This document shows positions 5,020-63,461 of a DNA stretch of 64,000 nt, in pieces. Numbering within the stretch: the first letter of the stretch is position 1; each line of letters opens with the position of its first letter. The DNA is from Beroe forskalii. Its lineage: Eukaryota > Ctenophora > Nuda > Beroida > Beroidae. The notes beneath the pieces are model-generated. The model worked only from the letters and a program-made list of their open reading frames with translations. It was not told where the DNA came from and made no database searches. The stretch is taken from assembly GCA_011033025.1 (NCBI GenBank), contig WFMF01000016.1, forward strand, positions 992,001 through 1,056,000, in the 5' to 3' direction. The position numbers and the translations under genes were made by a program.

Positions 5020-5856
5020 GGGGCTAAAAATGGGGTTTTCGTCCATAACTCAAAAACGAAAGGGGTTAGGACTTTCAAACCATGTTCTACCCCCCATAAT
5101 GTGAGGATTCTGCATAGGTTAGGGTCCTCGTTCAGGTCTCTACGACCTTCAGATTTTATCTATTAATAGGGGCAATTTTCGGGTTACGCATAGGGCTAAT
5201 AAGGGGTTTTTCGTCCATAACTCTTAAACGAAAGGTGTTAGGACTTTGAAACCATGTTCTACCCCCCAAAATGTGATGATTCTGCACAGGGTAGTGTCCT
5301 CGTTGAGTTCTCTAGGTCCTTCAGATTCTATTTATTGACTAGGGGCAATTTTGGGGTTATGGGTAGGGCTAAAAAGGGGTTTTTCGTCCATAAATCTTAA
5401 ACGAAAGGGGTTAGGACTTTGAAACCATGTTCTACCCCCCATAATGTGATGATTCTGCATGACGTAGTGTCCTCGTTGAGTTCTCTAGGTCCTTCAGATT
5501 CTACTTATCAAAAAGGGGCAATTTTGGGGTAACGCGTAGGGCTAAAAAGAGGTTTTTCGTCCATAACTCCAAAACTAAAGGGGTTACGACTTTAAAACTA
5601 TGCTTCGTAGCCTATGATGTGCTCATCCTGCATAGTTTGGTATAACGATATGGCCTGTATCTCAATCAGAAGCTGAGATATTGCCGGTTGAAGTTCGTGC
5701 CCCAATTCGGGAGAAAAAGGGGTCCAAAAAAGGGGTTTCCCCAACTCGGAATCCGGTGAGTTTTTTCTGGTGAATATATGGACTATGAACTACCGAAAAA
5801 CGTTCTCAGACCTACTTAACTATTTAGTTCACAGGGGGTTACAGTCGTACCCTTAC
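5020..5856. repeat. Right arm: ~172-bp tandem subunits
   Basis: Inverse of the left arm, in the same subunit order. It holds the uninterrupted sequence used to define the nested insertion at 1874. Confidence 0.8.
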
Positions 5857-7572: not shown

Positions 7573-8182
7573 TAAAGAGTGGACTCACAATGAAACCAGT
7601 ATCGTAATAGGAATAAAGCAGGTAATAAAGAACACCACACAACTGATATTAGTAAGGCCCCACGGTAATACAATGAATTGACATTACCTGAGATAGTATA
7701 TCAATTAGTAAATAGAAAACACATATTCACACACAAAACTTAACAAGTAATGACTGTAATTGACTGTATTTAATTTTCTCTACAAAGAAGAACAAGTAAT
7801 GAAGATTGAAGATATGATAAATAAGATGAAATTTTACAATACAGCAACATGAAACAATTCTAACATGAAACTTGCCAGACGTTGTCTGCCCGAGCACGCA
7901 GAGGGCAGAGGCGCGCGCAAAATAAGGATTTGTAACATGGATTAAGTCCAAGCTTGCCAGACGTTGTCAGCCCCATATTTTCTGCGAGTTGGGGCGTGCG
8001 CAGGGAGCCAGGCAACGCCTGGCAACCTAGGAAACATTGCTCAATTTGACTTGTCGTACGATGTGTCGATGTATGACCCACTGACGCCAGCCGCGGCTGG
8101 CGTCGCGTCAGCGCGGGCGCTGCGCTGATTCTCGAGATAGGAACTGTCAACGTCACGCAAAGTCTTATTAAGTCTTAATTAT
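7573..8182. other. No gene; short palindrome and direct repeat
   Basis: A perfect 22-bp palindrome occupies 8083-8104 (half-site GACGCCAGCCG). TTGCCAGACGTTGTC occurs at 7872 and 7954. No coding resemblance. Confidence 0.6.
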
Positions 8183-8930
8183 TGAAATGGGGTTTAACGC
8201 GCACACAATAAACGACATCATGCAAGTGGCAATAACTCTTAACAACCGGGATTATCCGTTTTGGCAGTGAAATGAAAGTCACGTGTACATAGAGTTTACA
8301 AGTGAATGTGCCTCGCGCAAGGATACACACTTAATTAAACCTCTTATCGATGTAACATCGAAACTAATGTAATGTATTGCGTGTAATGAGCTCAAGGAAG
8401 TATCTGAGAATGGTTTTTTATCATGATAAATTTCCATGTTACAAAAGCACTTATCTGAATTTAAATGAATCTTGACATGAGACGTAACTATGAGAAATGA
8501 TTTAAATTGATGCTGAAGAATATGATTTCGATCTCATTATGTAGAAACAAGGGAAACTTGAAATGGTTTTAAACGAATTGAGACGTTGAAACAATGAAAT
8601 GATTGAGAAATGATTTAAATTGATTTAAATTGATTTAAATTGATGTTGAAGACTATGATTTCGATCTTATTATGTGGAAACAAGGGAAACTTGAAATTAC
8701 TGTAAACGAATTGAGACGCTGAAACAATCCGGGTATTTTGATTAATTGAACTTTGAAAAGACTTCAAAGAGTATGACTGAATATAATTATCGTGTGAAAT
8801 AACAAATAAAGTATTGTTTGATTTGAAATATTGATATTTATACAATATGATTCTGTAATATGACGGTTAGCGTCAGCTAGCCTATATTTGAATTTTAAAC
8901 CTGTGTAAAACCTGTGTAAACCTGTGTAAA

Positions 8931-9043
<113 letters not shown>

Positions 9044-9398
9044 ATTTCGAGTTGAGGAAGTTATGAAATCACTCACTAATAAATTTATCCAAAGTTGGGA
9101 AGATGGAAAATCATCCTCTAACAAATTGTCATTTTACAACTCAATTAAACAAAAATTTGCTCGTGAACCATATCTAGATCGCCTAAAGGGTTTGCACATA
9201 GATATTACACAACCAAATTAGAATAAGACAGTGCACATGACTTGCACATTGAAACAGGGAGGTATTCAGACACAGCACGTGATCAGAGAACCTGTCACTG
9301 GTGCAATACGAGCATGGGATTGAAACAAATACAGTTGAATGTGAGAAACACTTTCTATTTGAATGTGACATACGCCAGCCTGCGAGATAAACTTATTA
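9044..9398 (+). pseudogene. LINE ORF C-terminal fragment, split by insertion
   Basis: Equivalent of the unit-2 fragment at 14788-15474. It encodes, in broken frames, the stretch rich in 'KLSFYNSIKQKF' and then the CxxC region typical of the C-terminal end of LINE ORF2 proteins. Compared with unit 2 it has several small indels ('tacgcc' for 'tgtacgcc'; an extra 'aaaca' near 9325). The reading is cut at 9398 by the foldback element and resumes at 13579. Confidence 0.7.
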
Positions 9399-9406
9399 GA
9401 AGATTG
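9399..9406. repeat. Target-site duplication, left copy
   Basis: GAAGATTG, identical to 13571-13578. The same octamer occurs once, uninterrupted, at 15143-15150 in the duplicated unit that lacks the element. Confidence 0.9.
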
Positions 9407-9426
9407 GGCAGATGTTGACTTTGCAA

Positions 9427-9835
9427 TCGGCGCCAATCAGCGCTGATCAGCGCCGATCCATCGTCGATCGGCGCTGATCAGCTGATCGGCGCGACAGCGC
9501 GATCAGCGCTGATCGGGCCCGATCAGCGCTGATCAGCGACACTGCCGATCAGCGCTGATCAGCGCTGATCGCCGATCAGAAATTTCAAAATTCTCATCGG
9601 CGGTCGTCGGCGCTGATCGGCAAAGACAGCGCCGATCGCGCGATCAGCGCGATCGGCGATTTAACCAGCGCTGATCAGCGCCGATCAGCGCGATGGCCTG
9701 TAATCGCGCTGATCAGCGCTGATCAGCGCCGACCAAAACACCTGCATAAGAGCCTTTGTAAACGCCATTTTTCCTCACGTCGGCGCGGGATCAGCGCGAT
9801 CAGCTGATCATGCCGATCAGCGCTGATCGCCAACT
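9427..9835. repeat. GCGCTGATCAGCGC block, left arm
   Basis: Dense overlapping copies of the palindromic word GCGCTGATCAGCGC and variants with GCCGATC. Its mirror image is at 13135-13556. Confidence 0.9.
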
Positions 9836-10009
9836 TGTTAAATTTGAACTGATATGGACATTTGGGCGTGTTTGCCTCAAAATATAATTCCTGCTGGCCG
9901 CAGGTGATATTTTACGGCAATTCTCGCACAGGGCTGTAACATTAACATCAACAATCACATCAACAACAACATGAACCAGTTTTTACGATACAGTTATGCA
10001 TTGACGTGA

Positions 10010-10900
10010 CAGTAGAACCGTTACAAGTACAACACAGTTTCATTTCCACGACACAGTTACACCGTTACGACACAGTAGAACCGTTACGATTAAGTCACAC
10101 CACATGACAGTACGACACAGTAACACCGTTATAACGACACAGTAACATCGTTACTACACAGTAACACCGTTACGACACAGTAAACCGCAGTAACACCGTT
10201 ACAACAGTAAGTGTAACACCGTTGTCAAACATTGCCTGACCCCTTGCCTCCGACGGGGGCACGCCGTCTGAAATAATGTTCAGACTACGTCTCGTACACA
10301 ATAACACCGTTACGACACAGTAGAACCGTTTCAATACAGTAACACCGTTACGACACAGTAACACTGTAACGACATTGTAACACCGTTACGACACAGTTAC
10401 ACCTTTACAGCACAATAACGTCGTTACAACACAATAACACCGTTACGACACAGTAAAAGCAACTACGACACAGTCACATCGTTATGACACAGTAACACTA
10501 ATGTTACAACACAGTTTCATTCTTACGACACAGTAACACTGTTACAACACGCAGTAACACCATCACGACACAGTAACACCCTTACGACACAGTCAGTCAC
10601 GCAGTGACGACACAGTAACACCGTTACGCAGTTATAACGCAGTTAGTGTTACGACACAGTTACGAAGTTAGGGATCGTTCACATATTACGTGATCAATTT
10701 TTGGTCGATTTTAACCCCCCTCCCCTCGTAATCAAGTTTACAGTGGTTTACCTGTTACAATAACATGTAACGTAATAAGTCGGAAACCTCCTCCTCCTAT
10801 AGGTGACAACGTATTATTTGAACGATTATTTACGACACAGTTACGCAGTTACGACATAGTTACACCGTTACGACACACTCACAGTTGACGGGCGATGTCC
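10010..10900. repeat. ACGACACAGTAACACCGTT minisatellite, left arm
   Basis: About 19-bp degenerate units of the form ACGACACAGTAACACCGTT. Two non-repetitive islands (about 10215-10300 and 10670-10830) are not seen in the right arm. The mirror block is at 12250-12960. Confidence 0.85.
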
Positions 10901-11059
10901 GACCCTATCAGCAATTTTGAGGTCCAGCTGTGAAAACGTTGCGGCAAGCGCACGAGGGTAGGATATCATACAACGACGTAAGGCTGTTATTACGGTGTTA
11001 CTGTGTCGTATCGGTGTTATACTGTCATGACAGCGTGGCTAAATCCTATTTATGCAAAC

Positions 11060-11480
11060 CGCCGATTCGGCGCCGACAAGCGCCGAATCGTCACCTATAG
11101 GGGCCTATAGGCGCTTATAATTTTTATTAGGCGCCTATACGGCGCCTATAGGCGGTACCGCTTTTCGGCGCCTATAGGCGCCGACAGTTTTCGATCATCG
11201 AATTATCGGCGGTCATCGGCGCCTATAGGCGCCTATCGGCACCGAAAAGCGCCTATACACCGCTTTTCGGCGACATCGGCGGTTTTCGACCGCCTAAAGG
11301 CGCCTTTACGGCCATCACCACCTATAAGCGCCTATAGGCGCCTATAAGCGCCTATCGTGATATTTTCCATGATCCACGGCCCGGTACGAGTCTGAAGTAT
11401 CGGCGCCTATAGGCGCCAATATTGATCTCTAGCTATCTGTGTTCTTCCTTATTTTTCGGCGCCTATAGGCGCCGATGAAT
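11060..11480. repeat. GGCGCCTATAGGCGCC block, left arm
   Basis: Repeated palindromic word GGCGCCTATAGGCGCC and half-words. Mirrored, shorter, at 12050-12240. Confidence 0.9.
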
Positions 11481-11509
11481 TAAGGCAGCCCTAAACTCCT
11501 TAATCGGGC

Positions 11510-12030
11510 TAGAGTTGGGGTTTGAGTTATGGTTTGGGTTATGGTTTGGGCTATGGTTTGGGTTAGGGTTTGGGTTTGGGTTAGGGTCTGGGTTAGGGTT
11601 TGGGTTTGGGTTAGAGTTTGGGTTTGAGTTATGGTTTGGGTTAGGGTTTGGGTTAGGGTTTGGGTTAGGGTTTGGGTTAGGGTTTGGGTTTGGGTTTGGG
11701 TTAGGGTTTGGGTTTGGGTTAGGCTTTGGGTTAGGCTTTGGGTTAGGCTTTGTGTTAGGCTTTGGGTTAGGCTTTGGGTTAGGGTTTGGGTCAACCCAAA
11801 GCCTAACCCAAAGCCTAATCCAAATCCTAACAGTAACCCAAACCCTAACCCTAACCCAAACCCTAACCCAAACCCAAGCCCTAACCCAAACCCTAACCCA
11901 AACCCTAACACAATCCCAAACCCAAACCCTAACCCAAACCCTAACCCAAACCCTAACCCAAACCCTAACCCAAACCCTAACCCAAACCATTACCCAAACC
12001 CTAACCCAAACCCTAACTCTAGCCTAATTT
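11510..12030. repeat. Telomere-like TTTGGGTTAGGG core, head-to-head
   Basis: The left half (11510-11791) is TTTGGGTTAGGG-type repeat on the plus strand. The right half (11794-12030) is its complement CCCTAACCCAAA. They meet at TTTGGGT-CA-ACCCAAA (11785-11800), the centre of the foldback element. The units contain the metazoan telomere hexamer TTAGGG but alternate it with TTTGGG. Open frames here are repeat artefacts. Confidence 0.9.
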
Positions 12031-12049
12031 AGAAGTTTAGGACTGCTTT

Positions 12050-12240
12050 ATTCATTGGCGCCTATAGGCGCCTATTTAGACGATGAATTCAGTACTTTGA
12101 CTGATAATTGACTCGAGGCTCAGCTAATAAAACTCGTCCTTGCCAATTCAGTACTGCCTTTATTCATCGGCGCCTATGGCGCCGAAAAATAAGGAAGAAC
12201 ACAGATTCCTAGAGATCAATATCGGCGCCTATAGGCACTT
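12050..12240. repeat. GGCGCCTATAGGCGCC block, right arm
   Basis: Shorter mirror of 11060-11480; it shares the phrases around 'gatctctag' and 'ttccttatttttcgg' in inverse. Confidence 0.8.
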
Positions 12241-12249
12241 ATTTACGGC

Positions 12250-12970
12250 CTGAATGTGTCGTATAACAGCCGTGGTGTGTAGTAACGTCCTTACTGTGTT
12301 GTGACGGTGTTACTGTGTCGTAACGTCCTTACTGTGCTGTGAAGGTTTTACTGTGACTTAACAATGAAACTGTGTCGTAACGGTATTGCTATTTCGTGAC
12401 AATGTGACTTTGTCTTAACTGCGTAAAACTGCGTCGTAGCGGTACAACTGCGTCGTAAGGGTGCTACTGTGTCGTAATGGTGTTACTGCGTTACTGTGTT
12501 GTAACGGTGTTACTGTGTCGTAACTGCATGACTGTGTCGTAACTACGTGACTTTTTCGTAACTGTGTTACTGTGTTGGAACTGCGTAGTGCGTACAGACT
12601 GTGTCGTAACTGCGTCGTAATGGTGTTACAGCTTTGTCGTAACGTCCTTACTGTGTTGTAAGTGAGCTACTGTGCGGTTACTGTGTCGTCACGATGTTAC
12701 TTTGTCGTAACGGCGTTATTTGTTATTGTATCGTAACTGCGTGACTTCGTCGTAACTGCGTTACTGTGTAGTAACTGCGTAACTGTGTCGTAACGATGCT
12801 ATTGTGTCGTAACGACATTAATTTACTGTGCTGTTAAGGTGTTACTGTTTCGTATAAACGGTGTTACTGTGCCGTAACGATGTTACTGTGTTGTAACGGT
12901 GTAACTGTGTCATGGGAATGAAACTGTGCTGTAACGGTTCTACTGTCACGTCAATGCATAACTGCAACTG
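12250..12970. repeat. AACGGTGTTACTGTGTCGT minisatellite, right arm
   Basis: Complement of the left-arm minisatellite at 10010-10900, with its own expansions and contractions. Confidence 0.85.
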
Positions 12971-13134
12971 TATCGTAAAACTGGTTTATGTTGTTGTTGA
13001 TGTGATTGTTGATGTTAATGTTACAGCCCTGTGCGAGGAATTGCCGTAAAATGTCACCTGCACGGCCAGCAGGAATTATATTTTTGAGGCGAACACGCCC
13101 AAATGTCCATATCAGTTCAAATTTAACAAGTTGG
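12970..13134. repeat. Unique spacer shared by both arms
   Basis: About 165 bp of non-tandem sequence ('atgttgttgttgatgtgatt' through 'gttcaaatttaacaagttgg') that is the reverse complement of about 9835-9995. As the only complex sequence in the arms, it is the best probe for other copies. Confidence 0.85.
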
Positions 13135-13556
13135 CGATCGGCGCTGATAAGCGCTGATCAGCGCTGATCAGCGCTGATCAGCGCCGATGAGGAAAAATGG
13201 CGTTTACAAAGGCTCTTATGCAGGTGTTTTGGTCGGCGCTGATCAGCGCTGATCAGCGCTGATTTTTAGGCCATCAGCGCTGATCGGCGCTGATCAGCGC
13301 TGATTGATCGCCGATCAGCGCTGATCGCGCTGATCGGCGCTGATCAGCGCCGATCGCGCCGACGACCGCCGATGAGAATTTTGAAATTTCTGATCGGCGC
13401 TGATCAGCGCTGATCAGCGCTGATCGGCGGTGTCGCTGATCAGCGCTGATCGGGCCCGATCAGCGCTGATCAGCGCTGATCAGCGCCGATCAGCGCTGAT
13501 CAGCGCCGATCGGCGGTGGATCGGCGCTGATCAGCGCTGATCGGCGCTGATTGCAA
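13135..13556. repeat. GCGCTGATCAGCGC block, right arm
   Basis: Mirror of 9427-9835, including the shared island around 'ttggtcggcgctgatcagcg' and 'gggcccgatcagc'. Confidence 0.9.
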
Positions 13557-13570
13557 AGTCAACATCTGCC

Positions 13571-13578
13571 GAAGATTG
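13571..13578. repeat. Target-site duplication, right copy
   Basis: GAAGATTG, the partner of 9399-9406. Confidence 0.9.
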
Positions 13579-13902
13579 AAGAGCACCTCATCGGATAATA
13601 ACACATCACAGCCTGTCAATATAAACAATACAACTCTCAGGCAGAATCTTATGCACCTTCTTTCACCATACACACACAAAAACCTAAATGAGGCAGACAC
13701 CAATCAATTTAACTTACATCACAAAAACGTATTATGCAAGACACCTCATGACACCGACATAGAATCTAAAAAGCAGCACCAATCCTACATAATAAACTGC
13801 ATTTGTTCATTTATTTGCAATGCGTTTAAAACTCGCGTCAAATATAATAAGTCGATCAGGGAAAACACAATTCTCCCAAGGGTGATTTCAATTGACTTAT
13901 GA
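13579..13902 (+). pseudogene. LINE ORF C-terminus, continuation after insertion
   Basis: Matches 15151-15474 closely (open through 'RILPRVISIDL' and a TGA in unit 2, with 'NTILPRVISIDL' here). It is the 3' part of the coding fragment interrupted at 9398. Confidence 0.75.
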
Positions 13903-14671
13903 AGCTCGTCTTGAAATGGGGTTTAACGCGCACACAATAAACGACATCATGCAAGTGGCAATAACTCTTAACAACCGGGATTATCCGTTTTGGCAGTGAA
14001 ATGAAAGTCACGTGTACATAGAGTTTACAAGTGAATGTGCCTCGCGTAATGATACACACTTAATTAAACCTTTTATCGATGTAACATCGAAACTAATGTA
14101 ATGTATTGCGTGTAATGAGCTCGAGGAAGTATCTGAGAATGTCTTTTAATATGCTAATATGATAAATTGCCATGTTACAAAAGCACTTATCTGAATTTAA
14201 ATGAAACTTGACATGAGAAGTAACTATGAGAAATGATTTAAATTGATGCTGAAGAATATGATTTCGATCTCATTATGTAGAAACAAGGGAAACTTGAAAT
14301 GGTTTTAAACGAATTGAGACGTTGAAACAATGAAATGATTGAGAAATGATTTAAATTGATTTAAATTGATTTAAATTGATGTTGAAGACTATGATTTCGA
14401 TCTTATTATGTGGAAACAAGGGAAACTTGAAATTACTGTAAACGAATTGAGACGCTGAAACAATCCGGGTATTTTGATTAATTGAACTTTGAAAAGACTT
14501 CAAAGAGTATGACTGAATATAATTATCGTGTGAAATAACAAATAAAGTATTGTTTGATTTGAAATATTGATATTTATACAATATGATTCTGTAATATGAC
14601 GGTTAGCGTCAGCTAGCCTATATTTGAATTTTAAACCTGTGTAAACCAAACCTGTGTAAACCTGTGTAAAA

Positions 14672-15474
<803 letters not shown>

Positions 15475-16228
15475 AGCTCGTCTTGAAATGGGGTTTAACG
15501 CGCACACAATAAACGACATCATGCAAGTGGCAATAACTCTTAACAACCGGGATTATCCGTTTTGGCAGTGAAATGAAAGTCACGTGTACATAGAGTTTAC
15601 AAGTGAATGTGCCTCGCGTAATGATACACACTTAATTAAACCTTTTATCGATGTAACATCGAAACTAATGTAATGTATTGCGTGTAATGAGCTCGAGGAA
15701 GTATCTGAGAATGTCTTTTAATATGCTAATATGATAAATTGCCATGTTACAAAAGCACTTATCTGAATTTAAATGAAACTTGACATGAGAAGTAACTATG
15801 AGAAATGATTTAAATTGATGCTGAAGAATATGATTTCGATCTCATTATGTGGAAACAAGGGAAACTTGAAATGATTTTAAACGAATTGAGACGTTGAAAC
15901 AATGAAATGATTGAGAAATGATTTAACTTGATTTAAATGGATGCTGAAGACTATGATTTCGATCTTATTATGTGGAAACAAGGGAAACTTGAAATGACCG
16001 TAAACGAATGAGACGTTGAAACAATCCGGGTATTTTGTCTAAGTGAACTTTGAAAAGACTTCAAAAGAGTATGAATGAATATAATTATCGTGTGAAATAA
16101 CAAATAAAGTATTGTTTGATTTGAAATATTGATATTTATACAATATGATTCTGTAATATGACGGTTAGCGTCAGCTAGCCTATATTTGAATTTTAAACCT
16201 GTGTAAAACCTGTGTAAACCTGTGTAAA

Positions 16229-16274
<46 letters not shown>
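16229..16274. repeat. (AC)n microsatellite, unit 3
   Basis: Shorter AC tract (about 46 bp). The duplicated unit ends here and unrelated sequence follows. Confidence 0.95.
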
Positions 16275-19283: not shown

Positions 19284-20966
19284 TCAGGGTGCTTTGAGGT
19301 TTTTGATGTCGAAGTCATGTGATGGGAGCCATTCAACATCATCATGAGCATGCTGGTTTGCAAAAAGTGCCTTCTTAAGCCTGCCTTTAGGATCACTTAG
19401 ACTTTTAGAGGGGTCAGGACCGAATTTTTGATGAAGTGTATTCCAGAGGATTGCCGATTGGTACACAAAGTGTCTGGAGGGACTGGGGGTTATTAAAGCA
19501 CTTGAGGTAGCCCTTTTAGAAAATTTAAAGAGTGAATGTATTGAAATGGGGCTTTGGAATTTAATAATTTTAAATATATCCATAAAGCAATGGTATGTAT
19601 ATAGGTTTTTGACAGTAAGGATTTTGTACTTTTTGAAGAGAGGTTTAGTATGTTCTTTCCTATAGAATTCTTCTCCAAGGATTTGATCATAAATTGGTCG
19701 GGTGCGGCAACAGGTTTTAAATTTATTGACATAAGCATTATAGTCACCAAAGAGGACCCTTATGCATTTTTTCTGTATAATAAATAGCTCTGAAATTTTT
19801 GCATCTGATATACCGCCCCACACAGATATGCAGTATGCGAGATGGGATTCGAAGAGAGTATGGTAAAGGCTAGGGTGGAGTCCCTCTGGAATACACTTCT
19901 TTATTCTAGAAAGAGTGGCAATGGCGTAATTAAGTTTTCGTTTGCATTCGAGGATGTGCTTATCCCAGTTTAGATCTTGGTCAATAAACACTCCAAGGAA
20001 TTTTGTTTCAGCAACCTTCTTGATTTCTTGTGAATTGATGAACAATTTAAAATCACGGATGTTTTCAGAATTGTTTTTTGTCTTAGGTTTGAAGTGTATA
20101 TAATAACATTTTGATTGATTAATGTGCAATTTATTCAGGATCATATACTGATGTACTGATTTAAGTAGTAAGTTTGCTTTAGAATATGCATCTTTTGCAG
20201 TCTTTCCAGTTATAAAAATGTTAGTATCATCAGCAAAGAGGACAAATTCACCAAGTTTGGAGCAATTTGAAAGGTCGTTTATGTAGATTAGGAAGAGTAG
20301 TGGACCAAGGACAGATCCCTGTGGCACCCCAAATTGAATAGCAAGTTTTGTGGATTGGTGGTTCAGTACATCAGTATATTGACTCCTGTTAGATAGGTAT
20401 GATTTGATAAGTGAATGTGATGCTCCCCGTATTCCATAATGGTACAGCTTATCCAGCAGTGTTCCATGATCAATGGTGTCGAAAGCTTTACTCAGGTCAA
20501 TAAATATACCAAGGACATGTTGTTTCTTGTTTATGGCTGATTCAATGTGTGCAATTGAATAGTTCAGTGCATGACTGGTTGAGTGAGACTTTCTAAAACC
20601 ATATTGATTATGGTGGAGTATGTTTTGGGAAGTGAAGAAATTATAAAGTCGGGAATAGATAAGTTTTTCAAAGATTTTTCCAAATATAGGAAGTGTTGAG
20701 ATTGGCCTATAATTTTCTATTGAGTCAGGGCTTCCTTTTTTGTACACTGGTGTAATTTTGCCAACTTTCAGTTCCTCAGGAAATGAGCCCAGGGACATGA
20801 GGTCGTTAAATATTTTTGAGAGTGGCTTTGCAATTATATGCGAAGATTTCTTAATGACTTTGACAGGTATATCACTTGCTTTGCCATTTTGAAAGTCCGA
20901 AATGATTTCATTAATTTCAAGTTCAGTGCAATCTTCAAGAAATATTGAGTTGATGTTTGCTGGCAT
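19284..20966 (-). CDS. Jockey-like LINE reverse transcriptase ORF
   Basis: A 560-codon open frame encoding the RT part of a non-LTR retrotransposon polyprotein. In order: 'GKITPVYKKGSPDSIENYRP' and 'RPISTLPIFGKIFEKLI' (RT motifs 1-2), 'NQYGFRKSHST', 'GIFIDLSKAFDTIDH' (first catalytic Asp), 'FGVPQGSVLGPLLFLIYIND', 'LFADDTNIF' (catalytic FADD), and 'ETKFLGVFIDQDLNWDKHI'. The usual thumb/C-terminal region follows, with 'ILGEEFYRKEHTKPLFKKYK'. The listed ATG is only the first Met of the open stretch, and the coding sequence continues upstream. No endonuclease domain is present, so the copy is 5'-truncated. It is a close relative of the ORF at 22038-23333. Enzyme function is known for the family; activity here is unlikely. 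Confidence 0.9.
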   Translation of the reverse strand: MPANINSIFLEDCTELEINEIISDFQNGKASDIPVKVIKKSSHIIAKPLSKIFNDLMSLGSFPEELKVGKITPVYKKGSPDSIENYRPISTLPIFGKIFEKLIYSRLYNFFTSQNILHHNQYGFRKSHSTSHALNYSIAHIESAINKKQHVLGIFIDLSKAFDTIDHGTLLDKLYHYGIRGASHSLIKSYLSNRSQYTDVLNHQSTKLAIQFGVPQGSVLGPLLFLIYINDLSNCSKLGEFVLFADDTNIFITGKTAKDAYSKANLLLKSVHQYMILNKLHINQSKCYYIHFKPKTKNNSENIRDFKLFINSQEIKKVAETKFLGVFIDQDLNWDKHILECKRKLNYAIATLSRIKKCIPEGLHPSLYHTLFESHLAYCISVWGGISDAKISELFIIQKKCIRVLFGDYNAYVNKFKTCCRTRPIYDQILGEEFYRKEHTKPLFKKYKILTVKNLYTYHCFMDIFKIIKFQSPISIHSLFKFSKRATSSALITPSPSRHFVYQSAILWNTLHQKFGPDPSKSLSDPKGRLKKALFANQHAHDDVEWLPSHDFDIKNLKAP

Positions 20967-21268
20967 TAAGAATTCAGTAAACGATTGGAAGTGGGACCTG
21001 TTAACACTTATTCCATCTAAGTCAGAGTTCAGGTCAGAGGCAATTGAGATAAAATACTTGTTGAAAGCATTAGAAATAGTTCTTTTGTTAAGGATTTTTT
21101 CATTATTGATAACGAATGGAGGTTTTATTTGTTTTTATTAGAGCCCTGAGCTCATTTATTAGTTTCAAGTTTTCTTGGGATCCTCCCTGCATTCCTGGAA
21201 TTGAGAGCATTTGTATGATTGCTTGGCCTGCTTTATAATATGTTTCAATTTTTTACGATAAGTACTTC
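20967..21268 (-). pseudogene. Upstream part of LINE copy 1, frameshifted
   Basis: The same frame upstream of the listed Met reads 'PPFVINNEKILNKRTISNAF' then 'NKYFISIASDLNSDLDG', the usual linker before LINE RT. Further upstream the frame shifts and reads 'YRKKLKHIIKQAKQSYKCSQ'. The LINE stops at about 21268, where plus-strand LINE sequence begins. Confidence 0.65.
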
Positions 21269-22037: not shown

Positions 22038-23330
22038 TTATAATTGTGCCAGCGATTGCTTAAGTCTTTGTTTGACGCACTGGATGGAAGTTGTGAAATC
22101 AACGTTTGATTTCCGGCATTTTATCCACAAGTTAGAGGATTGGTAATCAAAAAGAACAGATTTGTTCTGGCTTAATAGTTTATCATCACGGATTCTAGAG
22201 CGGTGAAAAAGTTCATATATTGGCATTGGTACTTGAAGTTTCATAGCTTTGAAGAGTTCTAAAAGGCTGTGGTATTTGTGCAGGTTGTGAACAGTGAGAA
22301 GCCCATGTTTTTTGAATAGCGGTTTAGAATGCTCTCTTTCATAGAATTCTTCCCCGAGGATTTGGTTTTCAAACGCCCTCGTCCTAGCACATGTCCTAAA
22401 TTTTTCTAAATAAGATTCTCTATCGCCAAATAATACTCTTATACATTTCTTTTGGGTTATGAACAGCGGTTTTATAGCAGTTTTGGAGACACCTCCCCAG
22501 GCCGAAATACCATAGCTTAGGTGGGATTCGAATAGAGTATGGTACAAATTTTTATAAAGTACAGTGGGAATACAACTCCTGATTGCGTTCAACTTACCTA
22601 TTTCACATTTTAATTTTTTATTCAAATATTTGATGTGGGGCAGCCACGACAGATTTTCGTCAATGTTTACGCCTAAAAATTTTGTTTCCTTGACTCGGCT
22701 AATTGGTCTGTTTCCTAGAACAAGGCTTAAGGTTTCGTCTATTTCAGTATTATTTCTGCCACGTGGTTTGAAGTACATATAGCAGCATTTCTTAATGTTT
22801 ATGTGTAAGAGGTTACACCGCATATACTGGGTAATTGAGTGAAGTACCTTGTTAGCGTTTTCGAAAAGCGTTTTAATACACTTGTTAGATACAAATATAT
22901 TGGTGTCATCTGCAAATAATACAAATTTGCATAACTTTGTTGAGTTACAGATATCATTTATATAGATAATGAAGAGAAGTGGACCCAGCACTGACCCCTG
23001 TGGGACACCGAACTCGACGAGTAATTTATCAGATTCTTCGTTTAGAACTGAAACGTACTGTTTTCTATTAGATAAGTAGCTTTTTATAAGTGAGTGTGCG
23101 TTACCGTGTATTCCATACTTATCTAGTTTGTGCAGTAACTTATCATGGCTGATTGTATCGAATGCCTTACTTAAGTCTATAAATATTCCTAGAACATGAT
23201 TTTTGTCTCTGATAAGTTTCTCTATGTGAGTAACAGAATAGTTTATAGCATGGTTTGTGGAGTGACCTTTTCTAAAGCCGTATTGATTTTCATAAAGTAG
23301 GTTTTTTGATGTTACGGCTATATAGTCTAG
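22038..23330 (-). CDS. Second jockey-like LINE reverse transcriptase, 5'-truncated
   Basis: A 431-codon open stretch starting inside the RT domain. It has 'NLLYENQYGFRKGHSTNHAI', 'GIFIDLSKAFDTISHDKLL' (first catalytic Asp), 'FGVPQGSVLGPLLFIIYIND', 'LFADDTNIF', 'ETKFLGVNIDENLSWLPHI' and 'ILGEEFYEREHSKPLFKKHG', all aligned with the copy at 19284-20966. The two differ at many residues but are equally intact. The first 160 or so RT residues are missing because the element is cut at about 23330, where the 171-bp satellite begins. There is no true initiation codon; this is a dead but well-preserved copy. The 3' neighbour is dispersed repeat copy 2. Confidence 0.88.
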   Translation of the reverse strand, partial: LDYIAVTSKNLLYENQYGFRKGHSTNHAINYSVTHIEKLIRDKNHVLGIFIDLSKAFDTISHDKLLHKLDKYGIHGNAHSLIKSYLSNRKQYVSVLNEESDKLLVEFGVPQGSVLGPLLFIIYINDICNSTKLCKFVLFADDTNIFVSNKCIKTLFENANKVLHSITQYMRCNLLHINIKKCCYMYFKPRGRNNTEIDETLSLVLGNRPISRVKETKFLGVNIDENLSWLPHIKYLNKKLKCEIGKLNAIRSCIPTVLYKNLYHTLFESHLSYGISAWGGVSKTAIKPLFITQKKCIRVLFGDRESYLEKFRTCARTRAFENQILGEEFYEREHSKPLFKKHGLLTVHNLHKYHSLLELFKAMKLQVPMPIYELFHRSRIRDDKLLSQNKSVLFDYQSSNLWIKCRKSNVDFTTSIQCVKQRLKQSLAQL

Positions 23331-26300
23331 CACATATCTCCGAATTCCTTCGTCATAATTTCATGAAACTTTGTAATCCATTTGAGAGTGGTCCTAAGAA
23401 GGGAAAAACGTCAAAAAATCGAAACTCCACGTGCTAATTTTTTCGCTACAGTCAAACACAAGAATTTATTTTGATTTTACTAAGGTCGATTTGGTACAAC
23501 GGTCATATCTCCGAATTCCTACGTCATAATTTCATGAAACTTTCCAATCTATTCGAGAGTGATCCTAAGAAGGGAAAAACGTCAAAAAAAAAATCGAAAG
23601 TCCATTTATTTTGATTTTGCTAAGGTTTTGGTACAGCGCATACAGTCAAACAAGGATTTATTTTGATTTTATGAAGGTCGATTTTTTACTTTAGCTTTAT
23701 TACCTATATTTCATTATAATATTATTACTTTATTAATACCAGGAAAACGTCAAAAAATCGAAAGTCCACGTGCTGGATATTTTGGGATGTAAAACGTCAA
23801 AAAGGATAAATTTTCTGTTTTCTCTAATGTGTACTGTTGGTACAACGGTCATATGTAGTGTACACAAATTATTTAAAAGAAACTTTATAATCTGGAACCA
23901 GCTTCTTAAGGCTGAAACGTGACCTAGAAACGAAAGTCCACAGAGTTGGCAAAACAGCTATAATCGAACCAGCTTTATAAAAGGATGTCACGTGACCTAG
24001 AAGGGAGGGAGACAGAGTTGGCAAAACAGCTATAATCTGATCCCAACTTCTTATAAAGGATTCGAGTGATCCTAGAAACGTCAAAAAAGGGAGACAGAGT
24101 TGGTCAAAACAGCTATATTCTGGAACCAGCTTCTCAAAACGAATGTCACGTGACCTAGAAGGGAGGGATACCGATTTGGCAAAATTCATATAATCTGGAA
24201 TGAAGCTTCCGAATTCCTACGTCATAATTTCATGAAACTTTCCAATCTATTCAAGAGTGATCCTAAGATAGGAAAAATGTCAAAAAATCGAGAGTCCACG
24301 TGCTAATTTTTTCGCTACAGTCAAACACAAGGATTTATTTTGGTTTTACTAAGGTCGATTTGGTACAGCGGTCATATCTCCGAATTCCTACGTCATAATT
24401 TCATGAAACTTTCCAATCTATTCGAGAGTGATCCTCAGAAGGGAAAAACGTCAAAAAATCGAAAGTCCACGTGCTAATTTTATCGCTACAGTCAAACACA
24501 AGGATTAATTTTGATTTTAGTAAGGTCTCCGAATACCTACATCATAATTTCATGAAACTTTCCAATCTATTCGAGAGTGATCCTAAGAAGGAAAAACGTC
24601 AAAAAATCGAAAGTCCACGTGCTAATTTTTTCGCTACAGTCAAACACAAGGATTTATTTTGATTTTACTAAGGTCGATTTGGTACAACGGTCATATATCT
24701 CCGAATTCCTACGTCATAATTTCATGAAACTTTCCAATCTATTCGAGAGTGATCCTAAGAAGGGAAAAACGTCAAAAAATCGAAAGTCCACGTGCTAATT
24801 TTTTCGCTACAGTCAAACACAAGGATTTATTTTGATTTTACTAAGGTCGATTTGGTACAACGGTCATATCTCCGAATTCCTACGTCATAATTTCATGAAA
24901 CTTTCCAATCTATTCGAGTGATCCTAAGAAGGGAAAAACGTCAAAAAATCGAAAGTCCACGTGCTAATTTTTTCGCTACAGTCAAACACAAGGATTTATT
25001 TTGATTTTACTAAGGTCGATTTGGTACAACGGTCATATCTCCGAATTCCTACGTCATAATTTCATGAAACTTTCCAATCTATTCGAGAGTGATCCTAAGA
25101 AGGGAAAAACGTCAAAAAATCGAAAGTCCACGTGCTAATTTTTTCGCTACAGTCAAACACAAGGATTTATTTTGATTTTACTAAGGTCGATTTGGTACAA
25201 CGGTCATATCTCCGAATTCCTACGTCATAATTTCATGAAACTTTCCAATCTATTCGAGAGTGATCCTAAGAAGGGAAAAACGTCAAAAAATCGAAAGTCC
25301 ACGTGCTAATTTTTTCGCTACAGTCAAACACAAGGATTTATTTTGATTTTACTAAGGTCGATTTGGTACAACGGTCATATCTCCGAATTCCTACGTCATA
25401 ATTTCATGAAACTTTCCAATCTATTCGAGAGTGATCCTAAGAAGGGAAAAACGTCAAAAAATCGAAAGTCCACGTGCTAATTTTTTCGCTACAGTCAAAC
25501 ACAAGGATTTATTTTGATTTTACTAAGGTCGATTTGGTACAACGGTCATATCTCCGAATTCCTACGTCATAATTTCATGAAACTTTCCAATCTATTCGAG
25601 AGTGATCCTAAGAAGGGAAAAACGTCAAAAATCGAAAGTCCACGTGCTAATTTTTCGCTACAGTCAAACACAAGGATTTATTTTGATTTTACTAAGGTCG
25701 ATTTGGTACAGCGGTCATATCTCCGAATTCCTACGTCATAATTTCATGAAACTTTCCAATCTATTCGAGAGTGATCCTAAGAAGGGAAAAACGTCAAAAA
25801 ATCGAAAGTCCACGTGCTAATTTTTTCGCTACAGTCAAACGCAAGGATTTATTTTGATTTTACTAAGGTCGATTTGGTACAACGGTCATATCTCCGAATT
25901 CCTACGTCATAATTTCATGAAACTTTCCAATCTATTCGAGAGTGATCCTAAGAAGGGAAAACGTCAAAAAATCGAAAGTCCACGTGCTAATTTTTTCGCT
26001 ACAGTCAAACACAAGGATTTATTTTGATTTTACTAAGGTCGATTTGGTACAGCGGTCATATCTCCGAATTCCTACGTCATAATTTCATGAAACTTTCCAA
26101 TCTATTCGAGAGTGATCCTAAGAAGGGAAAAACGTCAAAAAATCGAAAGTCCACGTGCTAATTTTTTCGCTACAGTCAAACGCAAGGATTTATTTTGATT
26201 TTACTAAGGTCGATTTGGTACAACGGTCATATCTCCGAATTCCTACGTCATAATTTCATGAAACTTTCCAATCTATTCGAGAGTGATCCTAAGAAGGGAA

Positions 26301-27965
26301 AAACGTCAAAAAATCGAAAGTCCACGTGCTAATTTTTTCGCTACAGTCAAACACAAGGATTTATTTTGATTTTACTAAGGTCGATTTGGTACAACGGTCA
26401 TATCTCCGAATTCCTACGTCATAATTTCATGAAACTTTCCAATCTATTCGAGAGTGATCCTAAGAAGGAAAAACGTCAAAAATCGAAAGTCCACGTGCTA
26501 ATTTTTTCGCTACAGTCAAACACAAGGATTTATTTTGATTTTACTAAGGTCGATTTGGTACAACGGTCATATCTCCGAATTCCTACGTCATAATTTCATG
26601 AAACTTTCCAATCTATTCGAGAGTGATCCTAAGAAGGGAAAAACGTCAAAAAATCGAAAGTCCACGTGCTAATTTTTTCGCTACAGTCAAACACAAGGAT
26701 TTATTTTGATTTTACTAAGGTCGATTTGGTACAGCGGTCATATCTCCGAATTCCTACGTCATAATTTCATGAAACTTTCCAATCTATTCGAGAGTGATCC
26801 TAAGAAGGGAAAAACGTCAAAAAATCGAAAGTCCACGTGCTAATATTTTCGCTACAGTCAAACACAAGGATTTATTTTGATTTTACTAAGGTCGATTTGG
26901 TACAACGGTCATATCTCCGAATTCCTACGTCATAATTTCATGAAACTTTCCAATCTATTCGAGTGATCCTAAGAAGGGAAAAACGTCAAAAAATCGAAAG
27001 TCCACGTGCTAATTTTTTTGCTACAGTCAAACGCAAGGATTTATTTTGATTTTACTAAGGTCGATTTGGTACAGCGGTCATATCTCCGAATTCCTACGTC
27101 ATAATTTCATGAAACTTTCCAATCTATTCGAGAGTGATCCTAAGAAAGGAAAAACGTCAAAAAATCGAAAGTCCACGTGCTTATTTTTTCGCTACAGTCA
27201 AACACAAGGATTTATTTTGATTTTACTAAGGTCGATTTGGTACAGCGGTCATATCTCCGAATTCCTACGTCATAATTTCATGAAACTTTCCAATCTATTC
27301 GAGAGTGATCCTAGAAGGGAAAAACGTCAAAAATCGAAAGTCCACGTGCTAATTTTTCGCTACAGTCAAACACAAGGATTTATTTTGATTTTACTAAGGT
27401 CGATTTGGTACAACGGTCATATCTCCGAATTCCTACGTTATAATTTCATTAAACTTTCCAATCTATTCGAGAGTGATTCTAAGAAGGGAAAAACGTCAAA
27501 AAAATCGAAAGTCCACGCGCTAATTTTTTCGCTACAGTCAAACACAAGGATTTATTTTGATTTTACTAAGGTCGATTTGGTACAACGGTCATATCTCCGA
27601 ATTCCTACGTCATAATTTCATGAAACTTTCCAATCTATTCGAGAGTGATTCTAAGAAGGGAAAAACCTCAAAAAATCGAAAGTCCACGTGCTAATTTTTT
27701 GCTACAGTCAAACACAAGGATTTATTTTGATTTTACTAAGGTCGATTTGGTACAGCGGTCATATCTCCAACGAATAATTTCATGAAACTTTCCAATCTAT
27801 TCGAGAGTGATCCTAAGAAGGAAAAACGTCAAAATCGAAAGTCCACGTGCTAATTTTTTCGCTACAGTCAAACACAAGGATTTATTTTGATTTTACTAAG
27901 GTCGATTTGGTACAACGGTCATATCTCCGAATTCCTACGTCATAATTTCATGAAACTTTCCAAAT
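23331..27965 (+). repeat. 171-bp satellite array, forward
   Basis: Monomers begin 'ctccgaattcctacgtcata' and end 'ggtacaacggtcatat'. Successive 'ggtcatatct' words at 25031, 25202 and 25373 give a 171-bp period. About 22 well-preserved monomers lie between 24205 and 27965, with 1-3 bp indels and variants such as 'acagcgg' for 'acaacgg' alternating along the array. Short open frames inside are repeat artefacts. Confidence 0.95.
23610..24205 (+). repeat. Divergent zone with ~75-85-bp repeats inside the array
   Basis: Four copies of a different unit ('gttggcaaaacagctataat' and 'gtcacgtgacctagaaggga') at about 23880-24200, interleaved with satellite words ('gatcctagaaacgtcaaaaa'). Confidence 0.75.
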
Positions 27966-31134: not shown

Positions 31135-31280
31135 CAAATGCTTTAAAAAGTCATATAATTTTTGGCAAACTTTGGCAAACTTTGGCGATTTAATCCCAAA
31201 ATTTTGGAGTTTGCCAAAAAAAGTGTTTGCCAAAGTTTGCCATAGTTTGCCAAAGTTTGCCTTACCCCCGCCCCTGGCTC
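31135..31280. repeat. TTTGGCAAAC short repeats at array edge
   Basis: Direct and inverted copies of TTTGGCAAAC/GTTTGCCAAA over about 110 bp, joining the 345-bp satellite at 'cctggctcctatgaaggc'. Confidence 0.8.
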
Positions 31281-34200
31281 CTATGAAGGCCTGGCAACTC
31301 TCAAACATGATATCCAACCATAGCAACTCATATCAAGCACATTTGAGGCCTTAAAACCCCATGTCGCCTCAGGCGACATTTGTCACATTTTTGTCACACA
31401 GCTTGCGACATTTCGCGCATTTATGGGGCGTGAAATCTGGGCGTGGCCACGGGCTGGGGATGGTTGATTTAGTGTTTAGGAACCCTAAATTAACTTTTAG
31501 GATCGAAATAAAATGATTTGGAGTGATTTTTCGGCTGAAATCGCCATGTCCACACTTGTCCCTTTTTTGCCACCAAATTGGCAGGAAAGATGGGACTTTT
31601 GGGCGTGGCTCAAGGTTGGGCGTGGCTCCTATGAAGGCCTGGCAACTCTCAAACATGATATCTAACCATAGCAACTCATATCAAGCACATTTGAGGCCTT
31701 AAAACCCCATGTCGCCTCAGGCGACATTTGTCACATTCTTGTCACACAGCTTGCGACATTTCGCGCATTTATGGGGCGTGAAATCTGGGCGTGGCCACGG
31801 GCTGGGAATGGTTGATTTAGTGTCTAGGAACCCTAAATTAACTTTTAGGATCGAAATAAAATGATTTGGAGCGATTTTCGGCTGAAATCGCCATGTCCAC
31901 ACTTGTCCCTTTTTGCCACCAAATTGGCAGGAAAGATGGGACTTTGGGCGTGGCTCAAGGTTGGGCGTGGCTCCTATGAAGGCCTGGCAACTCTCAAACA
32001 TGATATCTAACCATAGCAACTCATATCAAGCACATTTGAGGCCTTAAAACCCCATGTCGCCTCAGGCGACATTTGTCACATTTTTGTCACACAGCTTGCG
32101 ACATTTCGCGCATTTATGGGGCGTGAAATCTGGGCGTGACCACGGGCTGGGAATGGTTGATTTAGTGTCTAGGAACCCTAAATTAACTTTTAGGATCGAA
32201 ATAAAATGATTTGGAGTGATTTTTCGGCTGAAATCACCATGTCCACACTTGTCCCTTTTTTGCCACCAAATTGGCAGGAAAGATGGGACTTTTGGGCGTG
32301 GCTCAAGGTTGGGCGTGGCTCCTATGAAGGCCTGGCAACTCTCAAACATGATATCTAACCATAGCAACTCATATCAAGCACATTTGAGGCCTTAAAACCC
32401 CATGTCGCCTCAGGCGACATTTGTCACATTTTTGTCACACAGCTTGCGACATTTCGCGCATTTATGGGGCGTGAAATCTGGGCGTGGCCACGGGCTGGGG
32501 ATGGTTGATTTAGTGTTTAGGAACCCTAAATTAACTTTTAGGATCGAAATAAAATGATTTGGAGTGATTTTTCGGCTGAAATCGCCATTTCCACACTTGT
32601 CCCTTTTTTGCCACCAAATTGGCAGGAAAGATGGGACTTTTGGGCGTGGCTCAAGGTTGGGCGTGGCTCCTATGAAGGCCTGGCAACTCTCAAACATGAT
32701 ATCTAACCATAGCAACTCATATCAAGCACATTTGAGGCCTTAAAACCCCATGTCGCCTCAGGCGACATTTGTCACATTTTGTCACACAGCTTGCGACATT
32801 TCGCGCATTTATGGGGCGTGAAATCTGGGCGTGGCCACGGGCTGGGAATGGTTGATTTAGTGTCTAGAAACCCTAAATTAACTTTTAGGATCGAAATAAA
32901 ATGATTTGGAGTGATTTTTCGGCTGAAATCGCCATGTCCACACTTGTCTTTTTTTGCCACCAAATTGGCAGGAAAGATGGGACTTTTGGGCGTGGCTCAA
33001 AGTTGGGCGTGGCTCCTATGATGGCCTGGCAACTCTCAAACATGATATCTAACCATAGCAACTCATATCAAGCACATTTGAGGCCTTAAAACCCCATGTC
33101 GCCTCAGGCGACATTTGTCACATTTTTGTCACACAGCTTGCGACATTTCGCGCATTTATGGGGCGTGAAATCTGGGCGTGGCCACGGGCTGGGGATGGTT
33201 GATTTAGTGTTTAGGAACCCTAAATTAACTTTTAGGATCGAAATAAAATGATTTGGAGTGATTTTCGGCTGAAATCACCATGTCCACACTTGTCCCTTTT
33301 TTGCCACCAAATTGGCAGGAAAGATGGGACTTTTGGGCGTGGCTCAAGGTTGGGCGTGGCTCCTATGAAGGCCTGGCAACTCTCAAACATGATATCTAAC
33401 CATAGCAACTCATATCAAGCACATTTGAGGCCTTAAAACCCCATGTCGCCTCAGGCGACATTTGTCACATTTTGTCACACAGCTTGCGACATTTCGCGCA
33501 TTTATGGGGCGTGAAATCTGGGCGTGGCCACGGGCTGGGAATGGTTGATTTAGTGTTTAGGAACCTAAATTAACTTTTAGGATCGAAATAAAATGATTTG
33601 GAGTGATTTTTCGGCTGAAATCGCCATGTCCACACTTGTCCCTTTTTGCCACCAAATTGGCAGGAAAGATGGGACTTTGGGCGTGGCTCAAGGTTAGGCG
33701 TGGCTCCTATGAAGGCCTGGCAACTCTCAAACATGATATCTAACCATAGCAACTCATATCAAGCACATTTGAGGCCTTAAAACCCCATGTCGCCTCAGGC
33801 GACATTTGTCACATTTTTGTCACACAGCTTGCGACATTTCGCGCATTTATGGGGCGTGAAATCTGGGCGTGGCCACGGGCTGGGAATGGTTGATTTAGTG
33901 TTTAGGAACCCTAAATTAACTTTTAGGATCGAAATAAAATGATTTGGAGTGATTTTTCGGCTGAAATCGCCATGTCCACACTTGTCCCTTTTTTGCCACC
34001 AAATTGGCAGGAAAGATGGGACTTTTGGGCGTGGCTCAAGGTTAGGCGTGGCTCCTATGAAGGCCTGGCAACTCTCAAACATGATATCTAACCATAGCAA
34101 CTCATATCAAGCACATTTGAGGCCTTAAAACCCCATGTCGCCTCAGGCGACATTTGTCACATTTTTGTCACACAGCTTGCGACATTTCGCGCATTTATGG

Positions 34201-35471
34201 GGCGTGAAATCTGGGCGTGGCCACGGGCTGGGAATGGTTGATTTAGTGTCTAGGAACCCTAAATTAACTTTTAGGATCGAAATAAAATGATTTGGAGTGA
34301 TTTTTCGGCTGAAATCGCCATGTCCACACTTGTCCCTTTTTGCCACCAAATTGGCAGGAAAGATGGGACTTTGGGCGTGGCTCAAGGTTGGGCGTGGCTC
34401 CTATGAAGGCCTGGCAACTCTCAAACATGATATCTAACCATAGCAACTCATATCAAGCACATTTGAGGCCTTAAAACCCCATGTCGCCTCAGGCGACATT
34501 TGTCTATTTTGTCACACAGCTTGCGACATTTCGCGCATTTATGGGGCGTGAAATCTGGGCGTGGCCACGGGCTGGGGATGGTTGATTTAGTGTTTAGGAA
34601 CCCTAAATTAACTTTTAGGATCGAAATAAAATGATTTGGAGTGATTTTTCGGCTGAAATCGCCATGTCCACACTTGTCCCTTTTTTGCCACCAAATTGGC
34701 AGGAAAGATGGGACTTTTGGGCGTGGCTCAAGGTTAGGCGTGGCTCCTATGAAGGCCTGGCAACTCTCAAACATGATATCTAACCATAGCAACTCATATC
34801 AAGCACATTTGAGGCCTTAAAACCCCATGTCGCCTCAGGCGACATTTGTCACATTTGTCACACAGCTTGCGACATTTCGCGCATTTATGGGGCGTGAAAT
34901 CTGGGCGTGGCCACGGGCTGGGAATGGTTGATTTAGTGTTTAGGAACCCTAAATTAACTTTTAGGATCGAAATAAAATGATTTGGAGTGATTTTTCGGCT
35001 GAAATCGCCATGTCCACACTTGTCCCTTTTTGCCACCAAATTGGCAGGAAAGATGGGACTTTGGGCGTGGCTCAAGGTTAGGCGTGGCTCCTATGAAGGC
35101 CTGGCAACTCTCAAACATGATATCTAACCATAGCAACTCATATCAAGCACATTTGAGGCCTTAAAACCCCATGTCGCCTCAGGCGACATTTGTCCCATTT
35201 TGTCACACAGCTTGCGACATTTCGCGCATTTATGGGGCGTGAAATCTGGGCGTGGCCACGGGCTGGGAATGGTTGATTTAGTGTCTAGGAACCCTAAATT
35301 AACTTTAAGCATCGAAATTAAATGATTTGGAGTGATTTTTCGGCTGAAATCGCCATGTCCACACTTGTCCCTTTTTGCCACCAGATTGGCAGGAAAGATG
35401 GGACATTTGGGCGTGGCTCAAAGTTGGGCGTGGCTCTATGAAGGCCTGGCAACTCTCAAACATGATATCTT
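31281..35471 (+). repeat. 345-348-bp satellite array, ~12 units
   Basis: Units are marked by 'ttgaggccttaaaacccc' at 31343, 31691, 32036 and 32384 (spacing 348, 345, 348). Each contains the hairpin TGTCGCC-TCA-GGCGACA. On the minus strand each unit carries a ~60-115-codon open frame beginning 'MLWLDIMFESCQAFIGATPN'. It is interrupted by a stop in each unit and is probably non-coding. The array abuts the 171-bp satellite at 35471. Confidence 0.95.
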
Positions 35472-38800: not shown

Positions 38801-39235
38801 TTCGGAGATATGACCGTTGTACCAAATCGACCTTAGTAAAATCAAAATAAATCCTTGTGTTTGACTGTAGCGAAAAATTAGCACGTGGACTTTCGATTTT
38901 TGACGTTTTCCCTTCTTAGGATCACTCTCGAATAGATTGGAAAGTTTCATGAAATTATGACGTAGGAATTCGAGATATGACCGTTGTACCAAATCGACCT
39001 TAGTAAAATCAAAATAAATCCTTGTGTTTGACTGTAGCGAAAAAATTAGCACGTGGACTTTCGATTTTGACGTTTTTCATGAAATTCTTAGGATGACCTC
39101 TCGAATAGATTGGAAAGTTTCATGAAATTATGACGAAGGAATCCGGAGATATGACCGTTGTACCAAATCGATCTTAGTAAAATCAATATTATAAATCCTT
39201 GTGTTTGACTGTAGCGAAAATATTAGCACGTGGAC
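35891..39235 (-). repeat. 171-bp satellite array, reverse
   Basis: About 19-20 monomers as the reverse complement of the 23.3-28.0 kb array ('gaattcggagatatgaccgt'). The two arrays form a very large inverted repeat around 28-35.9 kb. Confidence 0.95.
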
Positions 39236-39727
39236 TTGAGGCCAAAATGAATTATTTTCATAAACGTATATTCTGGGTCGAGAGTAACTTTAGCCATAAC
39301 TTAAGCTCCAAGTCTTGTATAAAGTTGATAAAATGAATTAATTCGACATGTATTTACATCGATCCAGTAAAGTAAAACAAAGAGTGGTGTGATGTGCGAA
39401 AAATAAGAGACTTTCGACACGCACAAGCGATATGAAGAAAACGGTGTTTTTTATTCCGTTTATAGCCGTTGTACCAAATCGATTTTTAGTAAAACAAAAA
39501 TAAACTATATTGTTATCAAATGAATACATGCTTGAATATATTTTAACTAAATTTAACTCAATTTAATTAAATTTTAATTAAATTTAACTAAAATAAAATT
39601 TAAAAATATCTTTATTTTATTCAGCGAAAAATTTCCACACGACTTATTTTTCGACGTTGGTATCTGACGGTGAATAGATCGGCATCGGATCATCGATCAT
39701 TATCGAGAAATCCCAACTAACACTCTG

Positions 39728-62970: not shown

Positions 62971-62980
62971 ACCTCCCCAG

Positions 62981-63205: not shown

Positions 63206-63461
63206 GTGAGTCATACTACATTGTGCAGGCTGATCTAGAATCCGTGAGTATAAAAGATTGCTGTAATGGTGTCCCTACCAGCTCTCACCCTTCTGGAGTC
63301 TATATAAATCTTTCACCTGTTCAGTGTTCCTAATTCAATTTAAGTACTTTTGTACCCCCTCAGGTCATTTCATTATATTATCTCAATCTGTTCTTTTTAA
63401 AGATTCTGTCTGTACCCCCTCACCAGAGTTCATCATGCTTTATTTCTCAATCTATCCTCAG

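Follow-up and report, generated by a model that had tools for sequence, protein, structure and literature searches.

We describe here an element in a window of 64,000 nucleotides of Beroe forskalii DNA (bases 992001-1056000 of contig C203), which occupies positions 9407-13570 of that window and which is very probably a non-autonomous foldback DNA transposon, that is, one built of long and internally repetitive terminal inverted repeats. The element, 4,164 bp in length, is one copy of a family that we call FB1, and a search of the genome (216 Mb in 1134 contigs) established that FB1 is a dispersed, non-autonomous foldback transposon family.

Ends, target duplication and genomic copies of FB1

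The ends of the window copy, GGCAGATGTTGACTTTGCAA at 9407-9426 (plus strand) and its exact inverse at 13551-13570 (minus strand), are perfect 20-bp terminal inverted repeats, and an exact match search of the window placed the octamer GAAGATTG directly outside both of them, at 9399-9406 and 13571-13578 (both plus strand), as a target-site duplication. This agrees with a sequence-only reading made earlier of the same DNA, which had reported inverse ends flanked by this octamer. These are the only exact GGCAGATGTTGACTTTGCAA sites in the window, and no further one was found when up to 4 mismatches were allowed; the octamer is also present at 7801, at 29153 and, in inverse orientation, at 20929. 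Given the base composition, two flanking octamers would be identical by chance with a probability of about 2e-5.

The element lies within host tandem units of ~1.57 kb each (8182-16274, plus strand, from alignment of the flanks), one of which it interrupts. In the tandem neighbour GAAGATTG is uninterrupted at 15143-15150 (plus strand), with matching sequence on both sides, and constitutes a paralogous empty site. On removal of the element and one octamer the flanks aligned with this neighbour at an offset of 1,557 bp, with 97.1% identity over 2,385 bp, and the distance from 13571 to 15143, which is the spacing of the untouched unit, was 1,572 bp; both the empty octamer and the two spacings had been given in the earlier reading and were reproduced. 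A reading frame cut by the element resumes on its far side, and the corresponding frame in the next unit is open for 166 aa (14974-15474); it gave no Pfam match, and its likeness to the 3' end of a LINE was noticed by eye only. Since the octamer is uninterrupted in the neighbour unit, the proposal that FB1 was inserted later than the local duplication is supported. The reverse order, in which insertion preceded the duplication and the element was then cleanly lost from one unit, needs an extra step. The insertion had also been called fairly recent, which holds in a relative sense only, as full-length copies have diverged from one another by 2-5% in the aligned columns.

The sequence-only reading had predicted that a genome search with the ends and the spacer would recover many insertions flanked by different 8-bp duplications, and this was indeed observed. 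The 20-bp end gave 219 genome matches with up to 2 mismatches (110 forward and 109 reverse), as compared to a single match (0 forward, 1 reverse) for the reversed end pattern used as control, and the spacer matched at least 40 places in the genome (40 of 166 candidates scored). The copies described below come from the 100 end matches, out of 219, that were listed, and from 40 stretches taken around them, two places being taken in two pieces each. Adjacent convergent pairs among these 100 ends numbered 26, namely 10 mini-copies of 70-329 bp, which have their ends in common with the long FB1 copies and retain little besides, and 16 pairs of 3.2-13.8 kb. Nine copies, among them that of the window, have lengths of 3,850-4,172 bp and are wholly covered by the window element, with pairwise identities of 94.8-97.7% over aligned columns. 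In the 26 two-ended copies tabulated for their flanks the duplication is always of 8 bp, the paired octamers being identical in 21 and alike at 7 of 8 positions in the other 5, and the right-hand octamers are all distinct (26/26).

Left out of this table were the second pair of L058, whose octamer equals that of the first pair, L073 and L075, which are one locus on two contigs with octamers shifted by one base, and a pair on C770 with unrelated octamers; L077 consists of two mini-copies side by side, of which the outer pair of ends was counted and the inner ends were not. Loci with a single end (L047, L049, L059, L060, L062, L063, L064, L065, L066 and L067) also stand outside the table, L065 showing two ends in the same orientation, and no end was seen in L068. 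The 25 pre-insertion sites lean palindromic, T standing two bases outside the octamer with a frequency of 0.62 and the first octamer base being G with a frequency of 0.46 (symmetrised and descriptive values), as is expected of a symmetric integration complex.

These data also bear on two other explanations of the element. It is composed of short tandem repeats, and could be imagined as a satellite-like repeat that owes its dispersal to segmental duplication or ectopic recombination rather than to transposition, a thought to which the same-flank duplicates L054/L066 and L073/L075, the two ends in L058 and the unmatched octamers of C770 lend something. But the octamers differ among all 26 copies, in each of which the two flanks match, and for the window copy such spread is refuted by the exact duplication and the paralogous empty site, so that we consider it very improbable. 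An assembly artefact or false palindrome is at least as improbable, in spite of a run of 100 N in the window and of the misassembly to which long palindromes are open, because the same full-length structure of 3.85-4.17 kb recurs at nine independent loci whose octamers differ, and the arms are not identical. The foldback transposon thus remains the reading that we adopt.

Within the family the ends are written as GGCAGATG, and their general terminal form is GGCAGATGTTGAC. Two unusual loci may be noted. L043 (C55) is a 6.7-kb FB1 copy, 93% self-inverse, with the octamer GAAATTTC on both sides and with four spacers in alternating orientation, as though two foldbacks had fused. L080 (C331) is a mini foldback with the sister ends GGCAGATTCTGAC / GGCAGATGTTGGCC, seen at 66-182 and as an inverse near 2333-2449; it has CATCTGTC flanks and is present in each arm of an inverted repeat of 2.2 kb. 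The sister end GGCAGATGTTGGCCTTGCAA gave 46 genome matches as against 1 for its control, with ordinary FB1 ends mixed into the list.

Coding capacity, candidate transposases and other foldback families

The 16 two-ended long copies scanned showed no transposase. Their longest frames are translations of the repeats, and the longest non-repetitive frame is of 117 aa. Ten such non-repetitive frames, of 102-117 aa and taken from six of the long copies, gave no Pfam match at E 0.1. The sequence-only reading had noted the want of a transposase in the window copy and had concluded that it must be mobilised in trans; the first part now extends to all of these copies, and from it we infer the second. 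The genome itself holds 46 domain matches to MULE (Mutator-like element) transposases, several of them in open frames of >450 aa, 35 to Merlin (DDE_Tnp_IS1595) and 23 to hAT. The P-type transposase (PF21787) and the KDZ (Kyakuja-Dileera-Zisupton) transposase (PF18758) each gave 0 genome matches, and control genomes likewise gave 0 for both.

With the foldback interior excluded, the 20-bp and 13-bp ends led mostly to chance matches or variant ends in place of an autonomous partner, the 13-bp end giving 80 matches as compared to 34 for its control. The following places were considered as such a partner and rejected. C170:1032208 (L079), which has a 30-bp match in common with C332:165491, carries a retroelement gag-like frame and no transposon end, and C331 is the mini foldback of the sister end family. 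On C817 (L081) FB1 ends enclose a nested foldback of another family, FB2, together with a piece resembling, by eye, the C-terminus of a non-LTR reverse transcriptase. In the 13.8-kb copy on C357 the longest frames are repeats, and its length is partly due to a third family, FB3, nested inside.

FB2 is represented by 1,997 bp at L081:626-2622 with an 8-bp duplication, TTCCGGGG, read in one copy. Its ends, GGCAAAATGGTACCACAGGAACACGAC, are perfect over 32 bp and of the GGCAAAATGGTACC type, its arm units are GTGGAGGCTA, and its end gave 381 genome matches (control 0), with elements mostly of ~1.7-2.4 kb. FB3 is represented by 6,343 bp at L039:699-7041 (C357), nested in an FB1 copy as FB2 is, and has an 8-bp duplication, ACCTGCAT, also read in one copy. 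The FB3 ends, TAGGGTGCGCCC, are perfect over 57 bp and its arm units are of 20 bp; its end gave 215 genome matches (control 0), and the elements measure 2.4-9.2 kb. FB1, FB2 and FB3 are unrelated in sequence, and their arm units, of 10-20 bp, differ.

As regards the kind of enzyme that moves FB1, the 8-bp duplications of hAT elements have T as their second and A as their seventh base. This rule holds in 0/26 of the FB1 octamers, and together with the GG ends this disfavours hAT. Merlin elements have a conserved terminal 5'-GG and duplications of 8 or 9 bp, as described in the accessible text of PMC8101967, and FB1 shows the terminal 5'-GG with a duplication that lies within this range. The two characters would suit Mutator as well; going by them, a Merlin-type enzyme is our first choice, which we put forward tentatively. 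An enzyme of Mutator type, our second choice, is possible but rather doubtful, and one of some other kind comes third. A MULE foldback would have the same anatomy, with a MULE transposase as its mover, which is what has been reported of Tm1 and suggested in the case of Tetris. Besides the numerous MULE domains in open frames, it is favoured by the Tm1 and Tetris papers, which in the portions available tie foldbacks mostly to Mutator (PMC3169594, PMC4079207), and by FB3, where a MULE fragment lies 1.7 kb inward of one right-hand end (C367:146986) and a MULE match 11.3 kb inward of another end (within 12 kb to either side 2 were seen and 0.51 expected). However, no listed FB1 end has a MULE match facing it on its inner side, and FB1 always duplicates 8 bp (26/26), whereas the available text of the same papers gives mostly 9 bp for Tm1 and 8-10 bp for Tetris.

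Because three unrelated families of this form occur in one genome, a process of the host that turns transposons into palindromes may be considered. The wider proposition, namely that at least three unrelated families were turned foldback by such a process, foldback form being no trait of a single transposase, and that FB1 and FB2 are the first Merlin foldbacks, seems to us unlikely, though worth stating.

Anatomy of the element and likeness of its arms

From repeat analysis and unit counts the left outer arm (9426-9830, plus strand) is made of degenerate copies of the 10-bp unit GATCAGCGCT, a palindrome in its own right (GATC and AGCGCT). It is followed by the left copy of a non-tandem spacer (9831-9995, minus strand), which is the inverse of 12966-13133 with 3 differences in 164 columns, and by the left middle arm (9996-10880, plus strand), where a 19-bp unit, ACACAGTAACACCGTTACG, forms several runs that are broken at 10210-10282 and 10629-10826 by stretches with no inverse partner. 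The left inner arm (11066-11475, plus strand) has the 10-bp unit ATAGGCGCCT, and 10878-11404 has no long inverse partner over much of its length. At the centre (11481-12050) telomere-like TTAGGGTTTGGG runs face their own inverse, the arms 11558-11791 and 11794-12027 being 88% complementary and 2 nt apart. The right side repeats the left order inverted, parts of the left being unpartnered as said, with a right inner arm (12054-12245, minus strand) that is shorter than the left one, a right middle arm of the 19-bp unit in inverse orientation (12250-12965, minus strand), the right copy of the spacer, seen by self comparison (12966-13133, plus strand), and a right outer arm of 10-bp GATCAGCGCT units (13134-13550, minus strand). 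The outer ends of the window copy are 88% alike over ~800 bp, and the G+C content of the element is 48% as against 36% in its flanks.

Two statements of the sequence-only reading needed correction here. The element had been called almost wholly palindromic, which is too strong, as the self-inverse match covers 78% of it (E 1e-10); and the 165-bp spacer of the right side, taken to be unique, has the inverse copy just described in the other arm, besides its matches elsewhere in the genome.

The likeness of the two arms within a copy was assessed on the spacer, where the alignment is unambiguous, and L043 was found to be a divergent outlier. Over 14 copies the spacer difference averaged 0.0274 between a copy's own arms; between different copies it was 0.0389 for spacers of the same side and 0.0399 for those of opposite sides. 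Without L043 (13 copies) the own-arm value was 0.0229 as compared to 0.0283 for the same side of other copies, and none of 10,000 shuffles of partners gave a value as low. Own arms were closer to each other than to other copies in 10 of 13 cases without L043 and in 13 of 14 with it, and the own partner was among the nearest spacers in 8 of 28. Had the palindrome arisen a single time, before the copies separated, a copy's own arms should be no more alike than corresponding arms of two copies; the spacer comparison shows the opposite and suggests that the arms of one copy exchange sequence.

We propose that a transposase encoded elsewhere would bind the GGCAGATGTTGACTTTGCAA ends, excise FB1 and reinsert it through cuts staggered by 8 bp. 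The arms, with their palindromic 10-bp and 19-bp units, would lengthen and shorten by slippage and recombination and would be partly homogenised within each copy, and by such turnover and homogenisation the foldback could be kept without selection on a protein.

Several observations weigh against this scheme. Variants private to both arms of one copy number 1 without L043 (16 with it), as against 62 found in one arm, and when the outer 400 bp were compared a copy's own arm was the nearest one in 1 of 32 cases, with a shuffle value of 0.0365; any homogenisation of the arms is modest. The FB1 ends on C770 (52971-65291) are 12.3 kb apart and flanked by the unrelated octamers ATTTTTTG / AAATCTCC, and may belong either to two elements or to a recombination chimera like those of Galileo. 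Among the 100 listed of the 219 end matches no transposase tied to FB1 ends was found, nor any autonomous transposon sharing them such as the sequence-only reading had advised looking for. Around 213 end-like places (the 20-bp end, the interior-excluded 20-bp and 13-bp ends and the sister end) none of the 35 Merlin matches lay within a radius of 12 kb (0.83 expected). Similar counts were obtained for MULE (1 of 46, 1.09 expected) and hAT (1 of 23, 0.54 expected), the one match facing outward in both cases, so that proximity of ends and transposases is at chance level, a weak conclusion given that 100 of 219 FB1 ends were listed and that many of the 13-bp places are chance.

Known foldbacks and other features of the window

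Foldback architecture is already known from flies, worms and plants, and FB, Galileo, Tetris and Tm1 are elements of this kind. FB of Drosophila melanogaster and TU of sea urchin are foldbacks with short tandem repeats in their arms, and TU has 8-bp duplications. Palindromes of this kind, Galileo among them, are known inversion breakpoints. The sequence-only reading could not match the design of the element to a named family; the architecture does match known foldbacks, while the 20-mer end of FB1 gave no match in our literature search and 0 exact matches in viral_contigs.

In the available text of PMC4079207, Tetris of Drosophila virilis resembles FB1, by description, in its internally repetitive inverted arms, its lack of coding capacity, the want of an autonomous partner and its 8-10-bp duplications, but has only three structurally complete copies and a duplication of varying length. 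The Tm1 Mutator/Foldback elements of Meloidogyne, as far as the excerpts of PMC3169594 describe them, likewise have inverted repeats of composite build, the tandem units being of 13-15 bp, and include MITE-like members; they differ in that their 7-bp end motifs are asymmetric, their duplications are mostly of 9 bp and some members encode a transposase. Galileo, of the P superfamily in Drosophila, shares long repetitive inverted repeats and arm-only copies with FB1, and its chimeric copies with unmatched flanks recall the C770 pair, whereas its duplications are of 7 bp and its transposase is P-type (PMC3573991, in the part available). The Merlin superfamily, as given in the sections available of PMC8101967, agrees with FB1 in the terminal 5'-GG and 8-bp duplications, and Merlin domains are present in the genome; a foldback form of Merlin was not found among the papers listed by our literature searches. 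Compared with known foldbacks by description, FB1 is apparently a new family; as far as tested, its possible link to Merlin is new too, and so is the coexistence in a single genome of three foldback families unrelated to one another. Knowledge of foldbacks comes mainly from a small number of model organisms, often with the enzyme missing. The nine near-identical 4-kb palindromes, the mini-copies, the empty site and the three families offer material on how transposons become palindromes, on how their arms are kept similar and on whether Merlin transposases can move foldbacks.

Apart from FB1, the window contains 171-bp satellite arrays at 24208-27963, 35905-39237 and 42005-43945, in opposite orientations around a 348-bp satellite array at 31275-35470, and 348-bp arrays occur again, face to face, at 56606-59574. 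Two short 173-bp tandem arrays, at 1256-1863 and 5021-5602, have units that look mutually inverse. Reverse transcriptase frames (RVT_1) lie on the minus strand at 19284-21134 and 22038-23360, and a frame with a RecA-like fold and weak similarity to RAD51D/XRCC2 lies at 52929-53630, also on the minus strand. An exon match to THADA/TRM732 (DUF2428) was noticed at 62896-63333 on the plus strand.

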